A stretch of 34,921 bases of DNA from Nitrosopumilus sp. LS_AOA (GTDB lineage Archaea; Thermoproteota; Nitrososphaeria; Nitrososphaerales; Nitrosopumilaceae): positions 1 to 34,921 of the forward strand of contig LFLC01000014.1 of the NCBI GenBank assembly GCA_001543015.1. The letters run 5' to 3'. This document shows, in pieces, positions 6,882 through 34,921 of this stretch (the stretch's first letter is position 1; every line of letters starts with the position of its first letter). A program made the translations under genes and the position numbers. The notes beneath the pieces are model-generated. The model searched no databases and was not told where the DNA came from. It saw only the letters and a list, made by a program, of their open reading frames with translations.

Positions 6882-8354
<1,473 letters not shown>

Positions 8355-8368
8355 GACATGGAAAGTGT

Positions 8369-8393
8369 ACGGATGTACAATAATCTTCACATC
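8369..8393 (+). other. 16S processing stem, right arm
   Basis: This 25-nt segment (ACGGATGTACAATAATC...) is the reverse complement of the arm at 6794-6817 except for one inserted base and one change. Together the arms bring the two ends of the 16S precursor together for cleavage. Confidence 0.8.
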
Positions 8394-8468
8394 AAACCAT
8401 TCGATGCAATGCATCACTAACGTGATGTATGAAGGATGTAGTGGACCCCTGCCAGGGGGTTTGCAATG

Positions 8469-8502
8469 ATCATCGTGCATAGTCGTGTAATATGTGGCTG
8501 AA
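8469..8502 (+). other. 23S processing stem, left arm
   Basis: This 34-nt arm pairs with 11499-11532. The outer 16 nt (ATCATCGTGCATAGTC) and the inner 9 nt (GTGGCTGAA) are exact complements, separated by a central part with mismatches. This is the architecture of a bulge-helix-bulge processing site. Confidence 0.8.
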
Positions 8503-8504
8503 TA

Positions 8505-11498
<2,994 letters not shown>

Positions 11499-11500
<2 letters not shown>

Positions 11501-11532
11501 CAGCCACTTACATAGAGACTATGCACGATGAT
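11499..11532 (+). other. 23S processing stem, right arm
   Basis: This is the complement of 8469-8502 and starts at the 3' end of mature 23S. No 5S rRNA gene follows, so 5S must be encoded elsewhere. Confidence 0.8.
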
Positions 11533-28789: not shown

Positions 28790-30625
28790 TCAAACAAGTT
28801 TACTGTCCTTGTTTTCTAAGATGTTTGGAATTGTAAAAATAAATTTCGAACCTTTCCCTTTTTTACTCTCTGCCCAAATTTCTCCTTTCATTATCTCTAC
28901 AATTTCTTTACAAATTGATAGTCCCAACCCACTTCCATCATGCTCTCGTGTAATACCCGTATCTACTTGATAAAATTTTGTAAATATTTTCAGCAAATCT
29001 TCTGTGGGTATTCCTCTTCCATTATCTTTAATTGTAAATTTTACAAAATCATTGTTATCAATTTCACTTCTAATTTTTATCTCACCTGTATTTTTAGGAA
29101 TAAAATCAATTGCATTCAAAATGATATTTGTAAATACCTGTTTGAGTTTGATCTCATCACTAAATATTGTGTGTATTTTTGATTCCGCAATTATTAATTT
29201 AATATTTTTTTCATTGATTTTTGATTTAATATCCTCTAATAGTTCATCATAAAATTTTTCCAGTTTTATTTCTGAAATTGAAACTGACCCTGTTAACACT
29301 TCCATTCTTTGCAGTTGTAATAATTCTAATATCATTTTTTGAAGATGTTTCCCATTTTTTTCAATATTTTTAACTGCATCAGTTTGTTGTTCATTTAATT
29401 TTCCAATAAGTTCTGGCATTAACAACATTTCAGAATACCCTAAAATGGGCATCAGTGGTGTTTTCATTTCATGAGATAACATTGCCATAAACTCATCTTT
29501 TTCTTTCCCCGACTTTTTTAACTCTATTAATTTATTTTCTAATTGTTCTGAAATATTTTCTTGATATGAATACATTTTTTTAATTGATTTAGATAAAATA
29601 TTAAATTCATCATTTGATTCTATTACTGGGAATTGAATCTTTTTTGAACCAGATGATACTTTTTGAGAAATTTTAGCTAATTTTAAAACTGGTTTTGAAA
29701 ATGAGTTCATAAATAATCTTGTTACAATTGTGGAAATTATTAGAATAACACCTACTACTATCGCTGTATTTCTTTGTAATTCAATTAATGATTGATATAT
29801 TTTATCTTCAGTTGCCTGTGTTACAATGTACCATTCCAATGATTTTTGATCTAAGAACCCCTTGTCTTCTGTGATCAAAAAAATATTTGATACTTGATTT
29901 TTATCATCTTTTTTTAGAATTTTCATTTTTTCGTTTTTTAATTCATTAAAAAATTCTTTATCAAATGTTTTATCCCTAGATGTACTAAAAATGATATTCC
30001 CATCATGTGACAGTAAATGTGTTTCATACCCATCTCTGTTTTCATTTGATGTGGAAATAATATCATATAGTCTACTAGTTGGCATTTTTGTTACAATTAC
30101 TGCACTAGTTTCACCATCTTTGTTTTTAATTGGAGCTGAAAAATGTATAACTTCTTTTTTTAATTCATTAGAAAATGTTGGGTATTTATCAAAATAATTT
30201 GAATTTAAAGCATTTTTAAAAAATTTTTCTTCTGAATAATCATTAGTAATACTATCAAAATTCCTTGTATCTGAAATTTTATTCCCACTTAAATCATATA
30301 TTGAAATAGATGAATATGTTTTTGAAATTCTTTCATATTCTCGAAGTGTATTATCAAAAATTTTTAATTCTTGAGCATTGATTTGATTTGTTTTTGAATC
30401 AATAATAATTCCTGCATTTAATGCAAAAGTTGAGATATCTGCATTTCTCTCATAAATCATTCGTGATATTTTATCCATTACATGAATTGAATCTACGCTC
30501 ATTTCTTGTATGATTTTTGACTCTAATTCTGAATACTGTGATTGAAAAATCATAATACTTGGTATGAGTACTGATGGAATTGTAATGAGTAAAATTATTA
30601 AAAATAATTGATTTTTTATTTTCAT
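28790..30625 (-). CDS. Cache-HAMP sensor histidine kinase
   Basis: The protein has 611 residues: TM1 (about 6-28), an extracellular double-Cache-like sensor (30-285), TM2 (288-307), HAMP linker (308-355), dimerisation/HisKA domain with phospho-acceptor His385 in MLSHEMKTP, and HATPase_c with N-box FTNIILNAIDF, DNGRGIP and GSGLGLSICKEIV. It therefore senses an external signal and signals by phosphotransfer. Its ATG overlaps the stop of the solute-binding protein gene (ATGA), so the two are translationally coupled. The likely partners are the two receiver-only proteins at 31689 and 32672. Confidence 0.95.
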   Translation of the reverse strand: MKIKNQLFLIILLITIPSVLIPSIMIFQSQYSELESKIIQEMSVDSIHVMDKISRMIYERNADISTFALNAGIIIDSKTNQINAQELKIFDNTLREYERISKTYSSISIYDLSGNKISDTRNFDSITNDYSEEKFFKNALNSNYFDKYPTFSNELKKEVIHFSAPIKNKDGETSAVIVTKMPTSRLYDIISTSNENRDGYETHLLSHDGNIIFSTSRDKTFDKEFFNELKNEKMKILKKDDKNQVSNIFLITEDKGFLDQKSLEWYIVTQATEDKIYQSLIELQRNTAIVVGVILIISTIVTRLFMNSFSKPVLKLAKISQKVSSGSKKIQFPVIESNDEFNILSKSIKKMYSYQENISEQLENKLIELKKSGKEKDEFMAMLSHEMKTPLMPILGYSEMLLMPELIGKLNEQQTDAVKNIEKNGKHLQKMILELLQLQRMEVLTGSVSISEIKLEKFYDELLEDIKSKINEKNIKLIIAESKIHTIFSDEIKLKQVFTNIILNAIDFIPKNTGEIKIRSEIDNNDFVKFTIKDNGRGIPTEDLLKIFTKFYQVDTGITREHDGSGLGLSICKEIVEIMKGEIWAESKKGKGSKFIFTIPNILENKDSKLV

Positions 30626-31623
30626 GTTGATTTTTGGTAAATATTATCTATGAACTCTGATTTGATTATCTCATCTAGGTCGATGTTACTGTTAATTTGT
30701 CCTCGTTGTAAATAATACTCAATAAATATTCTACCAGTTTCGTATAATGATTTGGTATCCTCAAAATCTTTCATACTGTCATATTGTTGTTCTAAATCTG
30801 GCGAAACTACTCCACTAATTCCATCTGCCATACTTTGCACATCCATTGATTCAGCATTTGCCATGATTTCTAATGCCTCATCTTGATTAGAATTAACAAA
30901 ATCGCGTGCCATTACCATTGATTTTACAATTCTTTGAATATCTTCTTGTCTTTCATCAACTATATTTTTACGAAAAACAAGAACATCTGTAATTAATCCT
31001 GGCACCTCTCCTGCAGTAGCTAACACTACATATCCATCTTCAATGGCTTTTGATTTTACTGGATCCCATGTGTGCCCTGCATCAATAATTCCCTCATTAA
31101 GAGATTCTCCAACATCCATTGCTGGAATATCTACAAATCTTACATCTGCTTCAGTAATTCCTGACTTTTCAAGTATTTTTAAAATAAAAATATGTGAAAA
31201 ACTATTAATTCCTTCAACCCCTATTTTACTTCCTTTCAAATTAGATATGTCTGATGCAAAAATTTCTTTTCCAATTAACACATCTGCTGTATCTGAATAA
31301 TCTGAAATAAACACAACTTGAGATTTTATGCCTTCTGAATTGTGAAAAATAGTGTCCGTATACACTTCAAAAATCCCATCAACATCACCATTAATGTATA
31401 ATTCCTGTGCTTCAGTATATGTTTCTGTTAAAATTAATTTTACATCTACATTATTGTTATTGAAAAATTCTTTTTCTTGTGCAATAAACGCATTTGCATA
31501 TCCTGGCCAAATATTAATTGCAATTGTAATTGGTTGTAATTCTTCAGAGTCATCATATGAATAAAACAATATTCCTAAACCTATTATGATAACTGTAATC
31601 GTGATAATATAGTATATTTTCAT
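30622..31623 (-). CDS. Membrane-anchored NMT1/SsuA-type solute-binding protein
   Basis: The protein has 333 residues from the ATG at 31623, which lies about 25 nt from a TATA-like element. The N-terminus KIYYIITITVIIIGLGILFY is an uncleaved-looking helix without lipobox Cys. The mature part is a type 2 periplasmic-binding fold: ITIAINIWPGYANAFIAQEK, LKGSKIGVEGINSFSHIFIL, GIIDAGHTWDPVKSK and VPGLITDVLVFRKNI are typical of nitrate/taurine/thiamin-precursor binders. No ABC permease or ATPase is adjacent. Coupling to the kinase suggests it presents a ligand to the sensor rather than feeding a transporter; this is inference. An upstream longer start (31638) is less likely. Confidence 0.9.
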   Translation of the reverse strand: MKIYYIITITVIIIGLGILFYSYDDSEELQPITIAINIWPGYANAFIAQEKEFFNNNNVDVKLILTETYTEAQELYINGDVDGIFEVYTDTIFHNSEGIKSQVVFISDYSDTADVLIGKEIFASDISNLKGSKIGVEGINSFSHIFILKILEKSGITEADVRFVDIPAMDVGESLNEGIIDAGHTWDPVKSKAIEDGYVVLATAGEVPGLITDVLVFRKNIVDERQEDIQRIVKSMVMARDFVNSNQDEALEIMANAESMDVQSMADGISGVVSPDLEQQYDSMKDFEDTKSLYETGRIFIEYYLQRGQINSNIDLDEIIKSEFIDNIYQKST

Positions 31624-31644
31624 ATGTAATATAGCCAATTTTTT

Positions 31645-31652
31645 AATATAAA
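31645..31652 (-). promoter_or_regulatory. TATA-like box of the binding protein-kinase operon
   Basis: On the minus strand it reads TTTATATT, centred about 25 nt before the ATG at 31623. This spacing fits leaderless transcription, common in archaea. The palindrome at 31665-31680 lies directly upstream. Confidence 0.55.
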
Positions 31653-31664
31653 GCTGCTATGTTT

Positions 31665-31680
31665 TTTCCAAATTTGGAAA
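31665..31680. promoter_or_regulatory. Palindromic operator 1 (TTTCCAAATTTGGAAA)
   Basis: This is a perfect 16-bp palindrome whose centre is 49.5 nt upstream of the binding-protein start codon. It lies upstream of the TATA-like box, a position from which archaeal regulators often activate. It matches operators 2 and 3, and the likely binder is the winged-helix protein at 32060. Confidence 0.75.
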
Positions 31681-31688
31681 GTTTGATT

Positions 31689-32042
31689 TTAATTTAATAT
31701 TACTTCTTTTATTTTAGAAAGTGATATTGGTTTTTTCATTACTTTTTTGACTCCCATTTTTATTAATTCATGTTCTTTATCTTTTGAAATTTCTGTAGCA
31801 GTTAGAACAATGACATCTAAAAATTCAATATTTTTCTTTTTCATAATTTCAGTTAATACATCATATCCTGAAAATCCAGGCATTGCTAAATCTAAAATGA
31901 TTCTATCAAATCTGTCTTCTAAAATATGTTGTATGGCCTCAGTGCCATCATTAATTGTAACACATTCATGATTATTTAATGTAAAAAACTTTGAAAACAA
32001 ATCTGTTATGTCTTTGTTATCATCAATAATTAAGATCCTCAT
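31689..32042 (-). CDS. Receiver-only response regulator (copy 1)
   Basis: The protein has 117 residues and a single REC domain. Acid pocket Asp7-Asp8 (IIDDNKD), phospho-acceptor Asp51 in LDLAMPGFSGYD, Thr81 and Lys104-Pro105 are all present. It has no output domain, so it works by protein-protein contact or as a phosphate shuttle. It is 17 bp downstream of the winged-helix gene on the same strand. It is clearly paralogous to the plus-strand protein at 32672 (identical AMPGFSGYDV). Confidence 0.95.
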   Translation of the reverse strand: MRILIIDDNKDITDLFSKFFTLNNHECVTINDGTEAIQHILEDRFDRIILDLAMPGFSGYDVLTEIMKKKNIEFLDVIVLTATEISKDKEHELIKMGVKKVMKKPISLSKIKEVILN

Positions 32043-32059
32043 TTTAATTACAATTTTTC

Positions 32060-32512
32060 CTATATTGATTTTATCTTTATGAATACTTGCATGGTACCAT
32101 TATCTAATTCAACTTTAATACTTTGTAAAATTGTTGTGTATTCTATAATTTTTTTGTAATATCTTTTTTTTAAAACTCTTGATTCAACTAGAATGCCATC
32201 TTGAATGAGGCTGGATATTTTTCTATACCCACTTGTAAATGGAATATCTAATTTTTCTATGATTTCTTGTGTGGTGAGTGGGTTTTTTTGTAGTAAGGAA
32301 AAAATCTGATTTTTTATAGGATCTGATAACAATTCTTGAATATTTGAGCATATTTTCTCATTTTTTACTTGAATCCACTCTGAACCTTGTTTGACAAAAT
32401 CTTTTGAATCAATTATTGGTTTTTGAACTAGAGCCATTATTTCATTAAGTAATACTATTTCTTGCATTGATTCGAGTGTTTGATTTGTTTCTTTTTTACT
32501 TAAATCATACAT
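32060..32512 (-). CDS. Winged-helix (ArsR-like) transcriptional regulator
   Basis: The protein has 150 residues. Residues 50-125 form a winged helix: LLSDPIKNQIFSLLQKNPLT, recognition region EIIEKLDIPFTSGYRKISSL, wing LVESRVLKKRYYKK. The N-terminal helical part (ESMQEIVLLNEIMALVQ) and C-terminal beta part (MQVFIKIKSI) may mediate dimerisation. It heads the minus-strand operon with the receiver gene. A dimer would suit the palindromes at 31665, 32551 and 32614, and one of these sits in its own promoter, suggesting autoregulation. It could also be controlled through the receiver proteins. Confidence 0.85.
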   Translation of the reverse strand: MYDLSKKETNQTLESMQEIVLLNEIMALVQKPIIDSKDFVKQGSEWIQVKNEKICSNIQELLSDPIKNQIFSLLQKNPLTTQEIIEKLDIPFTSGYRKISSLIQDGILVESRVLKKRYYKKIIEYTTILQSIKVELDNGTMQVFIKIKSI

Positions 32513-32550
32513 GATATACTATAGCTTTATTATTTAATATGCTTTTTAAC

Positions 32551-32572
32551 AAAATTCCAAATTTGGAATTTT
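32551..32572. promoter_or_regulatory. Palindromic operator 2 (22-bp perfect palindrome)
   Basis: The core is ATTCCAAATTTGGAAT and symmetry extends to 22 bp with flanking A/T. Its centre is 49.5 nt from the start of the winged-helix gene, exactly as operator 1 is from the binding-protein start. An A/T-rich TATA-like segment (32531-32540) lies between. Confidence 0.78.
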
Positions 32573-32613
32573 CTATTAGTTTTAATCCTAAACAGATTGT
32601 CATTAAATTATTA

Positions 32614-32629
32614 TTTCTAAACTTGGAAA
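32614..32629. promoter_or_regulatory. Operator 3, imperfect copy (TTTCTAAACTTGGAAA)
   Basis: This differs from operator 1 at two positions. Its centre is 50.5 nt upstream of the plus-strand receiver gene at 32672, so it has the same placement as the other two. A TATA-like stretch (TATATTTT near 32639-32646) lies between it and the start. Confidence 0.65.
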
Positions 32630-32671
32630 TGCTTTAAGTATATTTTTTAACCATACCACGTTTTATTATAT

Positions 32672-33040
32672 ATGAATATTCTAATTGTAGAAGACAATCA
32701 TCATCTTTCAGAATTACTCTCTAAATATTTTAAACTTCAAAAACATCTTTGTCATGTAGCCCCCGGTGGTCAAATTGCATTATCTCTAATGCAAACAAAA
32801 ATTTATGATTTGGTGTTTTTAGATTTAGCAATGCCTGGATTTTCAGGATATGATGTAATTGAATCATTGAAAAAAAATGATACTATTAAAGATCAAAAAA
32901 TAATTGTTTTAACTGCTGTGACATTGGATCAAACTGATATTGATTTTCTTTTGAATCAAGGTGTACATGTAGTTTTACAAAAACCAGTTCCGCTGACTCA
33001 ACTAATTAGTTACGTTAGCCAAAATTTTCCTATTCCTTAA
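32672..33040 (+). CDS. Receiver-only response regulator (copy 2)
   Basis: The protein has 122 residues and a single REC domain: Glu7-Asp8 (IVEDNHH), phospho-acceptor Asp51 in LDLAMPGFSGYD, Thr81 and Lys104-Pro105. It is divergently transcribed from the winged-helix/receiver operon and shares the intergenic region with two operator copies. It is the second potential partner of the Cache kinase. It converges with the large surface-protein gene. Confidence 0.95.
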   Translation: MNILIVEDNHHLSELLSKYFKLQKHLCHVAPGGQIALSLMQTKIYDLVFLDLAMPGFSGYDVIESLKKNDTIKDQKIIVLTAVTLDQTDIDFLLNQGVHVVLQKPVPLTQLISYVSQNFPIP

Positions 33041-33062: not shown

Positions 33063-34921
33063 TTATTCATCTCTTTCTTCAAACCATTGATAATTCTTAA
33101 AGAATAATTCATACGCTCTATCTGCTTCGATTTGTAATTTTCTTTGTATCTCTGGATCATCTAATTTGTGTTCATATTGGTATGGGAATTTGTATGCAAA
33201 TGTATTGTTGATTTTATCAAATGGCATGTCATAACATTTTGGACACATTTGTAATACCAACTCTGCAGCTTTTGCAATTTCTTTTTCTTTTAGTTTGAAT
33301 AATTTAACTGCTTTTGGATCTGGTGCAATATTTGGAATGTACACTTTATTCCATAATCCTTTTTCTAACATCCAATTATTACCTAATTCATCTATTGCAG
33401 TGGTTTTACTTGTTTCAATAATATTGAATATGTGTCCTTTGTGAATTCCAACGTGTTGTTTTGGAGGATTTAATGAATCCCCTTCAATTATTACTCCGTC
33501 GTTGTAATAATTTTGCCATGCATTTCTCTTATGATCCCATACATTTGTGCCTACAATGTTGTGCTCAAGTGGTGCTCTAAATGAGTGAAGTACTGTGATA
33601 ATCAAACATGATGACTCATTTGAATTAGGTAAACAATTACCCACATCTGTTTCTATTACTATATTTTCAAATACATTTTCAGGATCAATTACTGTGATTG
33701 ATTCTATATTATCCCATGTCCTATCCCATTCAATTCTTGATGGATTTTGCGAGATTCCTTGAATTTCATCTAACCCAAATGCTAGTTCAAAATGTCTAAT
33801 ATTTTGTGGTCCTGAATTTTCATAAATTTTGAAAACTGCCGTGTTGTTTACCCCAATTAATGTTGTAATTAATGGGTATGATGTAAAGTATAATTCCACA
33901 TCTACAGAATTTCCATTATATGAGAATCCATTTGAAACCCTCCTCTGTCCAGAACTATCTAACCCCAGAGTTGGAGGGGTACAATCTGCACAACCACCGC
34001 CACCATCATCTTCCTCTTCTCCAGAACCATCACCTGCCCCAACTCCAAACTTTGATGTAGAATCAGCAGTAGCTGTAAAAATTGTAGATCCTGGGATGGA
34101 TGTGGTATCCCTTGTAGTTGCAATTGCCTCACTTAATTCTAATATTTCATTTCCATTACTATCGTGGAATATTGATGCAGACTCTGGTGTTAGACCTGCT
34201 GCAGTCAATAGTGTGTTTAGTATGGTGAATTTTATGGTACAAGTATCAGTACATGGGGCAGTAATGTCTACTGCTGTTGCTAAGTTTAATCCAAATTCTA
34301 TATTATTTTCAACTACAGTTTGAATAACTATCGTTCCTTCTATTCCTGTAGGTAATACAACATCAAGTGTAACTGTTATTGATGTTGATTCTTCAGTTTC
34401 AGGATATTCGAAAATAGTTGTAACATCTGCAGATGTTACAACCGATACAGAAGTTTCATCTGCAATCTGTACAATTCCGCCCAAATTACTTGAATCATAA
34501 AATATTGGAGTGTCTGTAATTGAGATTGCAAACATGCCTTCAGTTTTGACCATGTCGGATACTGTTGGAGTATCAGTTACAGAGATTACTGACATGCCTA
34601 CAATACCACCAGAGTCAGATACAGTTGGAGTATCTGATATTGATATAATATGAATCTGAATTACAGTTACAGAGTCAGATACAGTTGGAGTATCCGTTTC
34701 AGTTATGTCTCCAGCCTTTACTACAGTTACTGAATCAGATAGAACGGGAGTATCAGATGCAGATATGCTATGACTCTCAATTACAGTTACAGAGTCAGAT
34801 ACAGTTGGAGTATCCGTTTCAGTTATGTCTCCAGCCTTTACTACAGTTACTGAATCAGATAGAACGGGAGTATCCGTAACTAAGATTGATGATGTTTTGA
34901 TTACAGTTGCAGAATCACTAA
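33063..34921 (-). CDS. Large secreted surface protein, C-terminal part (5' end outside window)
   Basis: At least 619 residues are visible. The frame stays open to the right edge, so the ATG at 34595 is internal and not a true start. Order: seven 20-residue repeats (DTPTVSDSVTVV pattern, Thr/Ser/Asp/Val-rich, about 34495-34921); a beta-rich part with Thr/Ser (VSVVTSADVTTIFEY); an acidic Gly-rich hinge (GSGEEEDDGGGGCADC); then a conserved thaumarchaeal surface module (SYNGNSVDVELYF, NTAVFKIYENSGP, FRAPLEHNIVGTNVWDHKRN). The end is charged with a CPKC pair. It is probably a cell-surface adhesin or S-layer-associated protein, with repeats as a stalk. Confidence 0.88.
   Translation of the reverse strand, partial: SDSATVIKTSSILVTDTPVLSDSVTVVKAGDITETDTPTVSDSVTVIESHSISASDTPVLSDSVTVVKAGDITETDTPTVSDSVTVIQIHIISISDTPTVSDSGGIVGMSVISVTDTPTVSDMVKTEGMFAISITDTPIFYDSSNLGGIVQIADETSVSVVTSADVTTIFEYPETEESTSITVTLDVVLPTGIEGTIVIQTVVENNIEFGLNLATAVDITAPCTDTCTIKFTILNTLLTAAGLTPESASIFHDSNGNEILELSEAIATTRDTTSIPGSTIFTATADSTSKFGVGAGDGSGEEEDDGGGGCADCTPPTLGLDSSGQRRVSNGFSYNGNSVDVELYFTSYPLITTLIGVNNTAVFKIYENSGPQNIRHFELAFGLDEIQGISQNPSRIEWDRTWDNIESITVIDPENVFENIVIETDVGNCLPNSNESSCLIITVLHSFRAPLEHNIVGTNVWDHKRNAWQNYYNDGVIIEGDSLNPPKQHVGIHKGHIFNIIETSKTTAIDELGNNWMLEKGLWNKVYIPNIAPDPKAVKLFKLKEKEIAKAAELVLQMCPKCYDMPFDKINNTFAYKFPYQYEHKLDDPEIQRKLQIEADRAYELFFKNYQWFEERDE
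34495..34921 (-). repeat. 60-bp tandem coding repeats of the surface protein
   Basis: Seven units of 60 bp, recognisable by GTTGGAGTATC-type sequence near 34504, 34564, 34624, 34684, 34744, 34804 and 34864, encode 20-residue repeats. Two unit types alternate: 34659-34754 is identical to 34779-34874 (96 bp, offset 120 bp), which points to a recent duplication of a two-unit block. The array continues past the window edge. Confidence 0.88.

Follow-up and report, generated by a model that had tools for sequence, protein, structure and literature searches.

The question raised by this locus was which protein reads three closely related palindromes that lie about 50 bases 5' of three sensor and regulator genes in an archaeon of an ammonia-oxidiser lineage. 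The window, meaning the whole stretch of 34,921 nucleotides that was analysed, encodes a candidate reader between the palindromes themselves, a winged-helix (WH) protein. The comparisons described below indicated that the palindrome is probably the binding site of the family to which this protein belongs, and that it belongs to a so far uncharacterised circuit of signalling.

The gene at 30622-31623 on the minus strand encodes a membrane-anchored NMT1/SsuA-like substrate-binding protein (SBP) of 333 amino acids, which matched the Pfam families NMT1_2 (3e-17) and NMT1 (3.3e-17) as well as the NCBIfam family SsuA_fam (4.8e-30, 104.8 bits, under the family cut-off of 163.5). Domain search revealed a dCache-HAMP-HisKA-HATPase histidine kinase (HK) at 28790-30625 on the same strand, and its start overlaps the SBP stop codon (ATGA), so that SBP and HK were taken as one operon. 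A further minus-strand operon begins with the WH gene (32060-32512), coding for the 150-amino-acid winged-helix protein with a recognition helix at about residues 92-104 (FTSGYRKISSLIQ), which is proposed here as the binder of the palindromes. The second gene of this operon is RR1 (31689-32042, minus strand), a single-domain receiver with phospho-acceptor D51. Divergent from WH, a second single-domain receiver, RR2, was identified by domain search at 32672-33040 on the plus strand, and both D51 and the usual K104 are kept in RR1 and RR2. Elsewhere the window contained complete 16S and 23S rRNA genes (6882-11502, plus strand, Rfam) and, at 33063-34919, a repetitive secreted-type protein with DTPTVSDSVTV repeats that runs off the contig end.

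The palindromes were annotated without strand. Site 1 (TTTCCAAATTTGGAAA, 31665-31680, 0 mismatches) has its centre 49.5 nt 5' of the ATG of the SBP gene at 31623, site 2 (AAAATTCCAAATTTGGAATTTT, a perfect 22-bp palindrome at 32551-32572) 49.5 nt 5' of the WH ATG at 32512, and site 3 (TTTCTAAACTTGGAAA, 32614-32629, two mismatches against the 16-mer of site 1) 50.5 nt 5' of the RR2 ATG at 32672. The core of site 2 (32554-32569, ATTCCAAATTTGGAAT) also differs from the 16-mer by two mismatches, and a 14-bp core is common to sites 1 and 2. Sites 2 and 3 share one divergent intergenic region, between WH and RR2, with their centres 60 bp apart. The gene starts were mechanical calls, and an alternative SBP start at an in-frame TTG (31638) would reduce the distance of site 1 to 34.5 nt; the ATG at 31623 was favoured because the TATA-like segment ends about 21 nt 5' of it. 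Positions, mismatches and the matching distances from the three starts were all reproduced as the original prediction had given them.

TATA-like segments were assigned approximately to 31643-31653 on the minus strand for the SBP-HK promoter (TTTATATTA, from the sequence and a promoter alignment), and by promoter alignment to about 32530-32540 on the minus strand for the WH-RR1 promoter (ATATTAAATA) and about 32636-32650 on the plus strand for the RR2 promoter (AAGTATATTTTTTA). Their centres were found about 25 bp downstream of the palindrome centre for SBP-HK, about 26 bp from it for WH-RR1 and about 20-23 bp from it for RR2, in agreement with the earlier claim that all three copies lie on the upstream side of a TATA-like segment. 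From this spacing, transcription is predicted to start at or near the start codon.

Searches of the 1,925,182-base genome showed that the exact 16-mer TTTCCAAATTTGGAAA occurred once, as site 1. With up to two mismatches there were 15 places genome-wide, against 1 for the reversed control; three of the 15 fall within 965 bp (P ~4e-4), and beside this trio in the window no second cluster of the kind was found in the 1.93-Mb genome. The core TTCCA-N4-TGGAA was observed 8 times where a first-order Markov model of the window gave 6.6, which is not above expectation. Genome-wide over-representation of the core was not supported against this model and nothing was claimed from it, so that the information sits in the location of the copies. 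Six of the eight copies are outside ORFs (P about 0.0015), all of them before or beside two-component (receiver or kinase), WH, SBP or ribbon-helix-helix (RHH) genes; a motif both frequent and randomly placed, which would have refuted the original prediction, was not what the genome showed. Outside the window there are six exact sites, of which two are less than 1 kb from two other WH paralogues, on contigs C25 and C60 (expected 0.024, P 3e-4). Several promoters carry the site with no WH gene nearby (RHH on C49, HK on C35), which points either to a wider regulon or to a different binding protein; the regulon candidates beyond the window are RHH, receiver and HK genes on other contigs. The site inside EamA genes is conserved there and encodes a conserved peptide, ISKFGKKD, so it was left uncounted as a regulatory element.

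Homologues of WH were numerous in the family and the order. No close orthologue of the window protein was found in 250 genomes of the family (best 38%), so the three promoters could not be footprinted one by one and the palindromes around WH genes were ranked instead. All 1024 half-sites of 5 nt with an N4 spacer were ranked in the intergenic DNA around 55 WH genes of other genomes. TTCCA was found 10 times, joint first with the A/T-only ATTTT, and TCCCA 7 times, in fourth place, against Markov expectations of 0.18 and 0.05, respectively, the loci being related and the events not independent. The degenerate form TYCCA-N4-TGGRA was defined from this result and used afterwards. In other families and genera of the order, the palindrome stood directly upstream of the WH gene in the genomes G041 (-75), G052 (-49) and G298 (-18), and it was found within 7 nt of a WH gene in G204 and within 23 nt in G230. 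As a separate observation, WH genes of the C25 type repeatedly adjoin an EamA-type transporter gene, with the palindrome overlapping or closely preceding the transporter start codon (loci L017-L025, L101, L103, L108 and L151).

An AlphaFold model of WH, made from single-sequence input and of low confidence (mean pLDDT 56), showed a helix-turn-helix core in which residues 92-104 form the recognition helix, and sequence-profile matches to solved structures were weak, to regulators of the Lrp/AsnC, ArsR and MarR types. The recognition helix TSGYRK is found in all four WH proteins of the genome, the overall identity of which is about 21-33%, and Y96, R97 and G106 were invariant in a ten-member WH alignment. 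All four WH genes have a receiver gene within 0.6 kb (chance about 1e-6, given 32 receivers). The WH/receiver gap of the paralogue on C7 contained no obvious palindrome. Since TSGYRK is common to the four paralogues, the window WH is not the sole possible binder. A paralogue from elsewhere, or all four together, might occupy the sites and the window would be a node of a cross-regulating network, a reading to which we give a little less than an even chance; the shared helix and the same motif at other paralogue loci agree with it, while the densest cluster of the genome is at the local WH, its own promoter included, which argues for the local protein.

The placement of the operator differed by promoter. 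In the window, in RHH promoters and in G170 it is located at -48 to -58, upstream of TATA, and alignment of the RHH promoters on the palindrome centre again placed the TATA-like segment about 25 bp downstream (centre to centre). In a second promoter group, comprising EamA transporters and receivers adjoining WH genes (C25 of the same genome among them), the palindrome lies downstream of TATA and over the start, 7 to 16 nt 5' of the start codon, and there a repressor role would be expected. By analogy with the placement rule of TrmBL1, an activator-like role of the window sites is plausible. Repression by WH at these sites, through exclusion of TFB or TBP from the neighbouring BRE/TATA, was judged rather unlikely. 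In its favour, no more than about 10-14 bp separate the end of the palindrome from the TATA-like segments, and classical TrmB is a repressor where its sites overlap BRE and TATA (PMC4706686); the window sites, however, are clear of TATA, and at other genes the motif is downstream of it, the usual place for a repressor, an arrangement in which the sign seems to be set by position. Two promoters, G000:C25:27860-27960 and G000:C31:5540-5640 (L059, L156/L224), shared a near-identical 40-bp block, TTTTTAAATAG...CCATATTTGGAAATAACCTTG, in which TATA and a TTG start flank the palindrome. The C25 and C31 copies drive one receiver and one RHH protein, and the block seems to be a promoter cassette copied between gene families.

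The sites before RHH genes also bear on the choice of binder, as the operator might belong to a small RHH regulator (CopG-like, 47 aa), with WH, the receivers and SBP-HK as mere members of its regulon. Sites precede four RHH genes of the same genome (C49 at -58, C60 at -53, C31 at -43 and C31 at -13), and an exact TYCCA-N4-TGGRA was present 48 to 57 nt 5' of the ATG in 27 of 30 RHH orthologues of the genus. When these genes were divided by neighbourhood, however, the site was found in 26/26 with a receiver neighbour (WH also in 25) and in 1/4 without (Fisher P 0.001). RHH paralogues of the genome on C27, C33 (two), C10 and C22 have the same or nearly the same DNA-contacting KR[VI]TIM strand and lack the palindrome; G041, G052, G298, G204 and G230 have the palindrome at a WH gene and no member of this RHH family detectable at E 0.01, and no gene of the 47-aa RHH family was found in the window. 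The neighbour test, the site-less paralogues and the genomes without a detectable member of this RHH family together show that the site tracks the WH/receiver pair and not the RHH gene, and the RHH protein was downgraded to an improbable binder. Least probable of all was that the palindromes are A+T-rich by chance or act as RNA hairpins, with 31665-31680, for instance, as the terminator of RR1: the core count is near Markov expectation and site 1 lies directly 3' of the RR1 stop codon, but its RNA fold is weak (-5 kcal/mol, z -2.8), for which the terminator was rejected, sites 2 and 3 are upstream of genes in a divergent region, the distances match, and other genomes carry the motif at corresponding positions.

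Searching genome contigs with SBP returned mainly distant bacterial relatives. SBP relatives were present in ten further genomes of the family, mostly adjoining a kinase and often a receiver, and the sensor module is thus recurrent. Among the locus relatives, two with SBP, WH and receiver genes had the palindrome at -48 of the receiver in G170 (exact, TCCCAAAAATGGGA) and as a variant with one mismatch at -50 of the receiver in G020 (start set at M5 by homology), and a third had it with one mismatch at -65 of the SBP gene in G161. Altogether 3 of 22 upstream regions carried a site, against 0.4 in shuffles (P 0.0075). The anticipated conservation at these promoters in relatives was therefore borne out in part: versions exist in the three genomes named, while most related SBP operons are without the site and no close WH orthologue was found in the 250 family genomes. 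The support from this conservation is modest.

The relatives also differed in architecture. In G020 and G170 (L058, L086) the SBP domain is inside a larger protein of about 600 aa, clustered with a short WH gene, receivers and three kinases, and in G245 (L082:7115-9115) the SBP gene is tandem-duplicated, and no kinase gene adjoins it on the same strand. Another element, TTTGGGTACAATTTGG, recurs in conserved form before a WH-like gene in G171 and before a receiver gene in G152 (L077 about 1553, L079 about 8400); both loci adjoin SBP-HK operons without the palindrome, and a different regulator of this sensor module may use the element as its operator.

The preferred reading, which we hold to be likely, is that the three palindromes serve as operators for the WH protein whose gene lies between them, and perhaps for its paralogues too, with local autoregulation, activator-type placement and a loop to SBP-HK sensing. 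The motif, its spacing, the order of the operons, the association of the motif with WH genes across genomes and the common recognition helix were seen directly. The operator is found at the WH gene's own promoter and at the neighbouring promoters (sites 1-3), which is the layout of a locally autoregulated regulon, with binding predicted. The originally proposed local regulon with the WH protein as candidate binder was strengthened by the half-site ranking, the palindromes at WH genes elsewhere, the coupling of the site to WH and receiver genes, and the shared helix.

A WH dimer would bind TTCCA-N4-TGGAA (for example TTCCAAATTTGGAA) about 50 bp upstream of the transcription start, with BRE/TATA immediately following the site. 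Three transcription units would come under its control in this way, namely the operon of WH itself and RR1, the divergent RR2 gene, and the SBP-HK operon for sensing. SBP, together with HK, would recognise a small molecule and pass the signal on to RR1/RR2, and the abundance of the sensing module would be adjusted through the loop. In this scheme we infer binding, dimerisation and activation, the ligand, and any effect of a receiver on WH. The pairing of each WH gene of the genome with a receiver, and the presence of the operator before WH, receiver, kinase and RHH genes, led to a more tentative proposal, held at appreciably less than even confidence, in which the WH family would supply the DNA-binding output that the stand-alone receivers of this lineage lack. 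In such a split response regulator, a phosphorylated REC-only protein would bind its partner WH, which would read TTCCA-N4-TGGAA, with the position relative to TATA setting the sign.

About three quarters of the response regulators in the phylum are receivers that lack an output domain, and their mode of action on genes is not known (PMC5847659). A conserved operator that follows a receiver-paired WH family across genus, family and order would name a concrete target on the DNA and a candidate for its reader, and would delimit the set of promoters, so that short oligonucleotides and purified proteins would suffice to test the question, with no need for genetics in an archaeon that grows slowly.

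The closest comparison for the two placements is TrmBL1/Tgr and the Thermococcales glycolytic motif (TGM), TATCAC-N5-GTGATA, which activates from upstream of BRE/TATA and represses from downstream of TATA (PMC4706686, PMC4158304). As there, an archaeal winged-helix regulator is combined with a palindromic operator in two placements relative to TATA, binding and sign being analogies in the case of WH. Unlike the TGM, the motif here is TTCCA/TCCCA-N4-TGGAA/TGGGA, and its targets are signalling genes, not sugar genes. The best Pfam match of the window WH was TrmB at 21.6 bits, below the cut-off of 25.6, and Pfam and NCBIfam gave no match to a C-terminal sugar- or effector-binding domain in the 150-aa protein. 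By Pfam cut-off, motif and domain content, as read from sequence, the window WH is outside TrmB/TrmBL1, and by analogy it may work like them.

In the same account (Galperin et al. 2018, PMC5847659), thaumarchaeal receivers without an output domain are described as occasionally adjoining ArsR-like HTH proteins of arCOG03067, with the interaction to be shown; an ArsR/HTH_20-type example beside a REC-only receiver is Nmar_0452-Nmar_0453. In those pairs as in the present one, winged-helix protein and receiver are each stand-alone and encoded side by side. The arCOG03067 pairs are often divergent, whereas WH and RR1 of the window are in one operon. Against HTH_20 the window WH scored 15.9 bits where 27 is required, and 4 of 10 WH family members matched at E 0.05 or better (best 9e-6). 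The consulted part of that account names no operator, regulon or SBP-HK partner for arCOG03067 (PMC5847659). It also presents FilR1 and LtrR as archaeal response regulators with receiver and DNA-binding domain in one protein (PMC5847659). As with these, kinase, receiver and winged helix would form one signalling module; unlike them, the receiver (31689-32042) and WH (32060-32512) are separate ORFs, with a putative contact between the two proteins. Literature searches yielded nothing relevant on the motif in this lineage. The pairing of WH and receiver was already known; the papers searched described neither the operator with its two placements nor the regulon.
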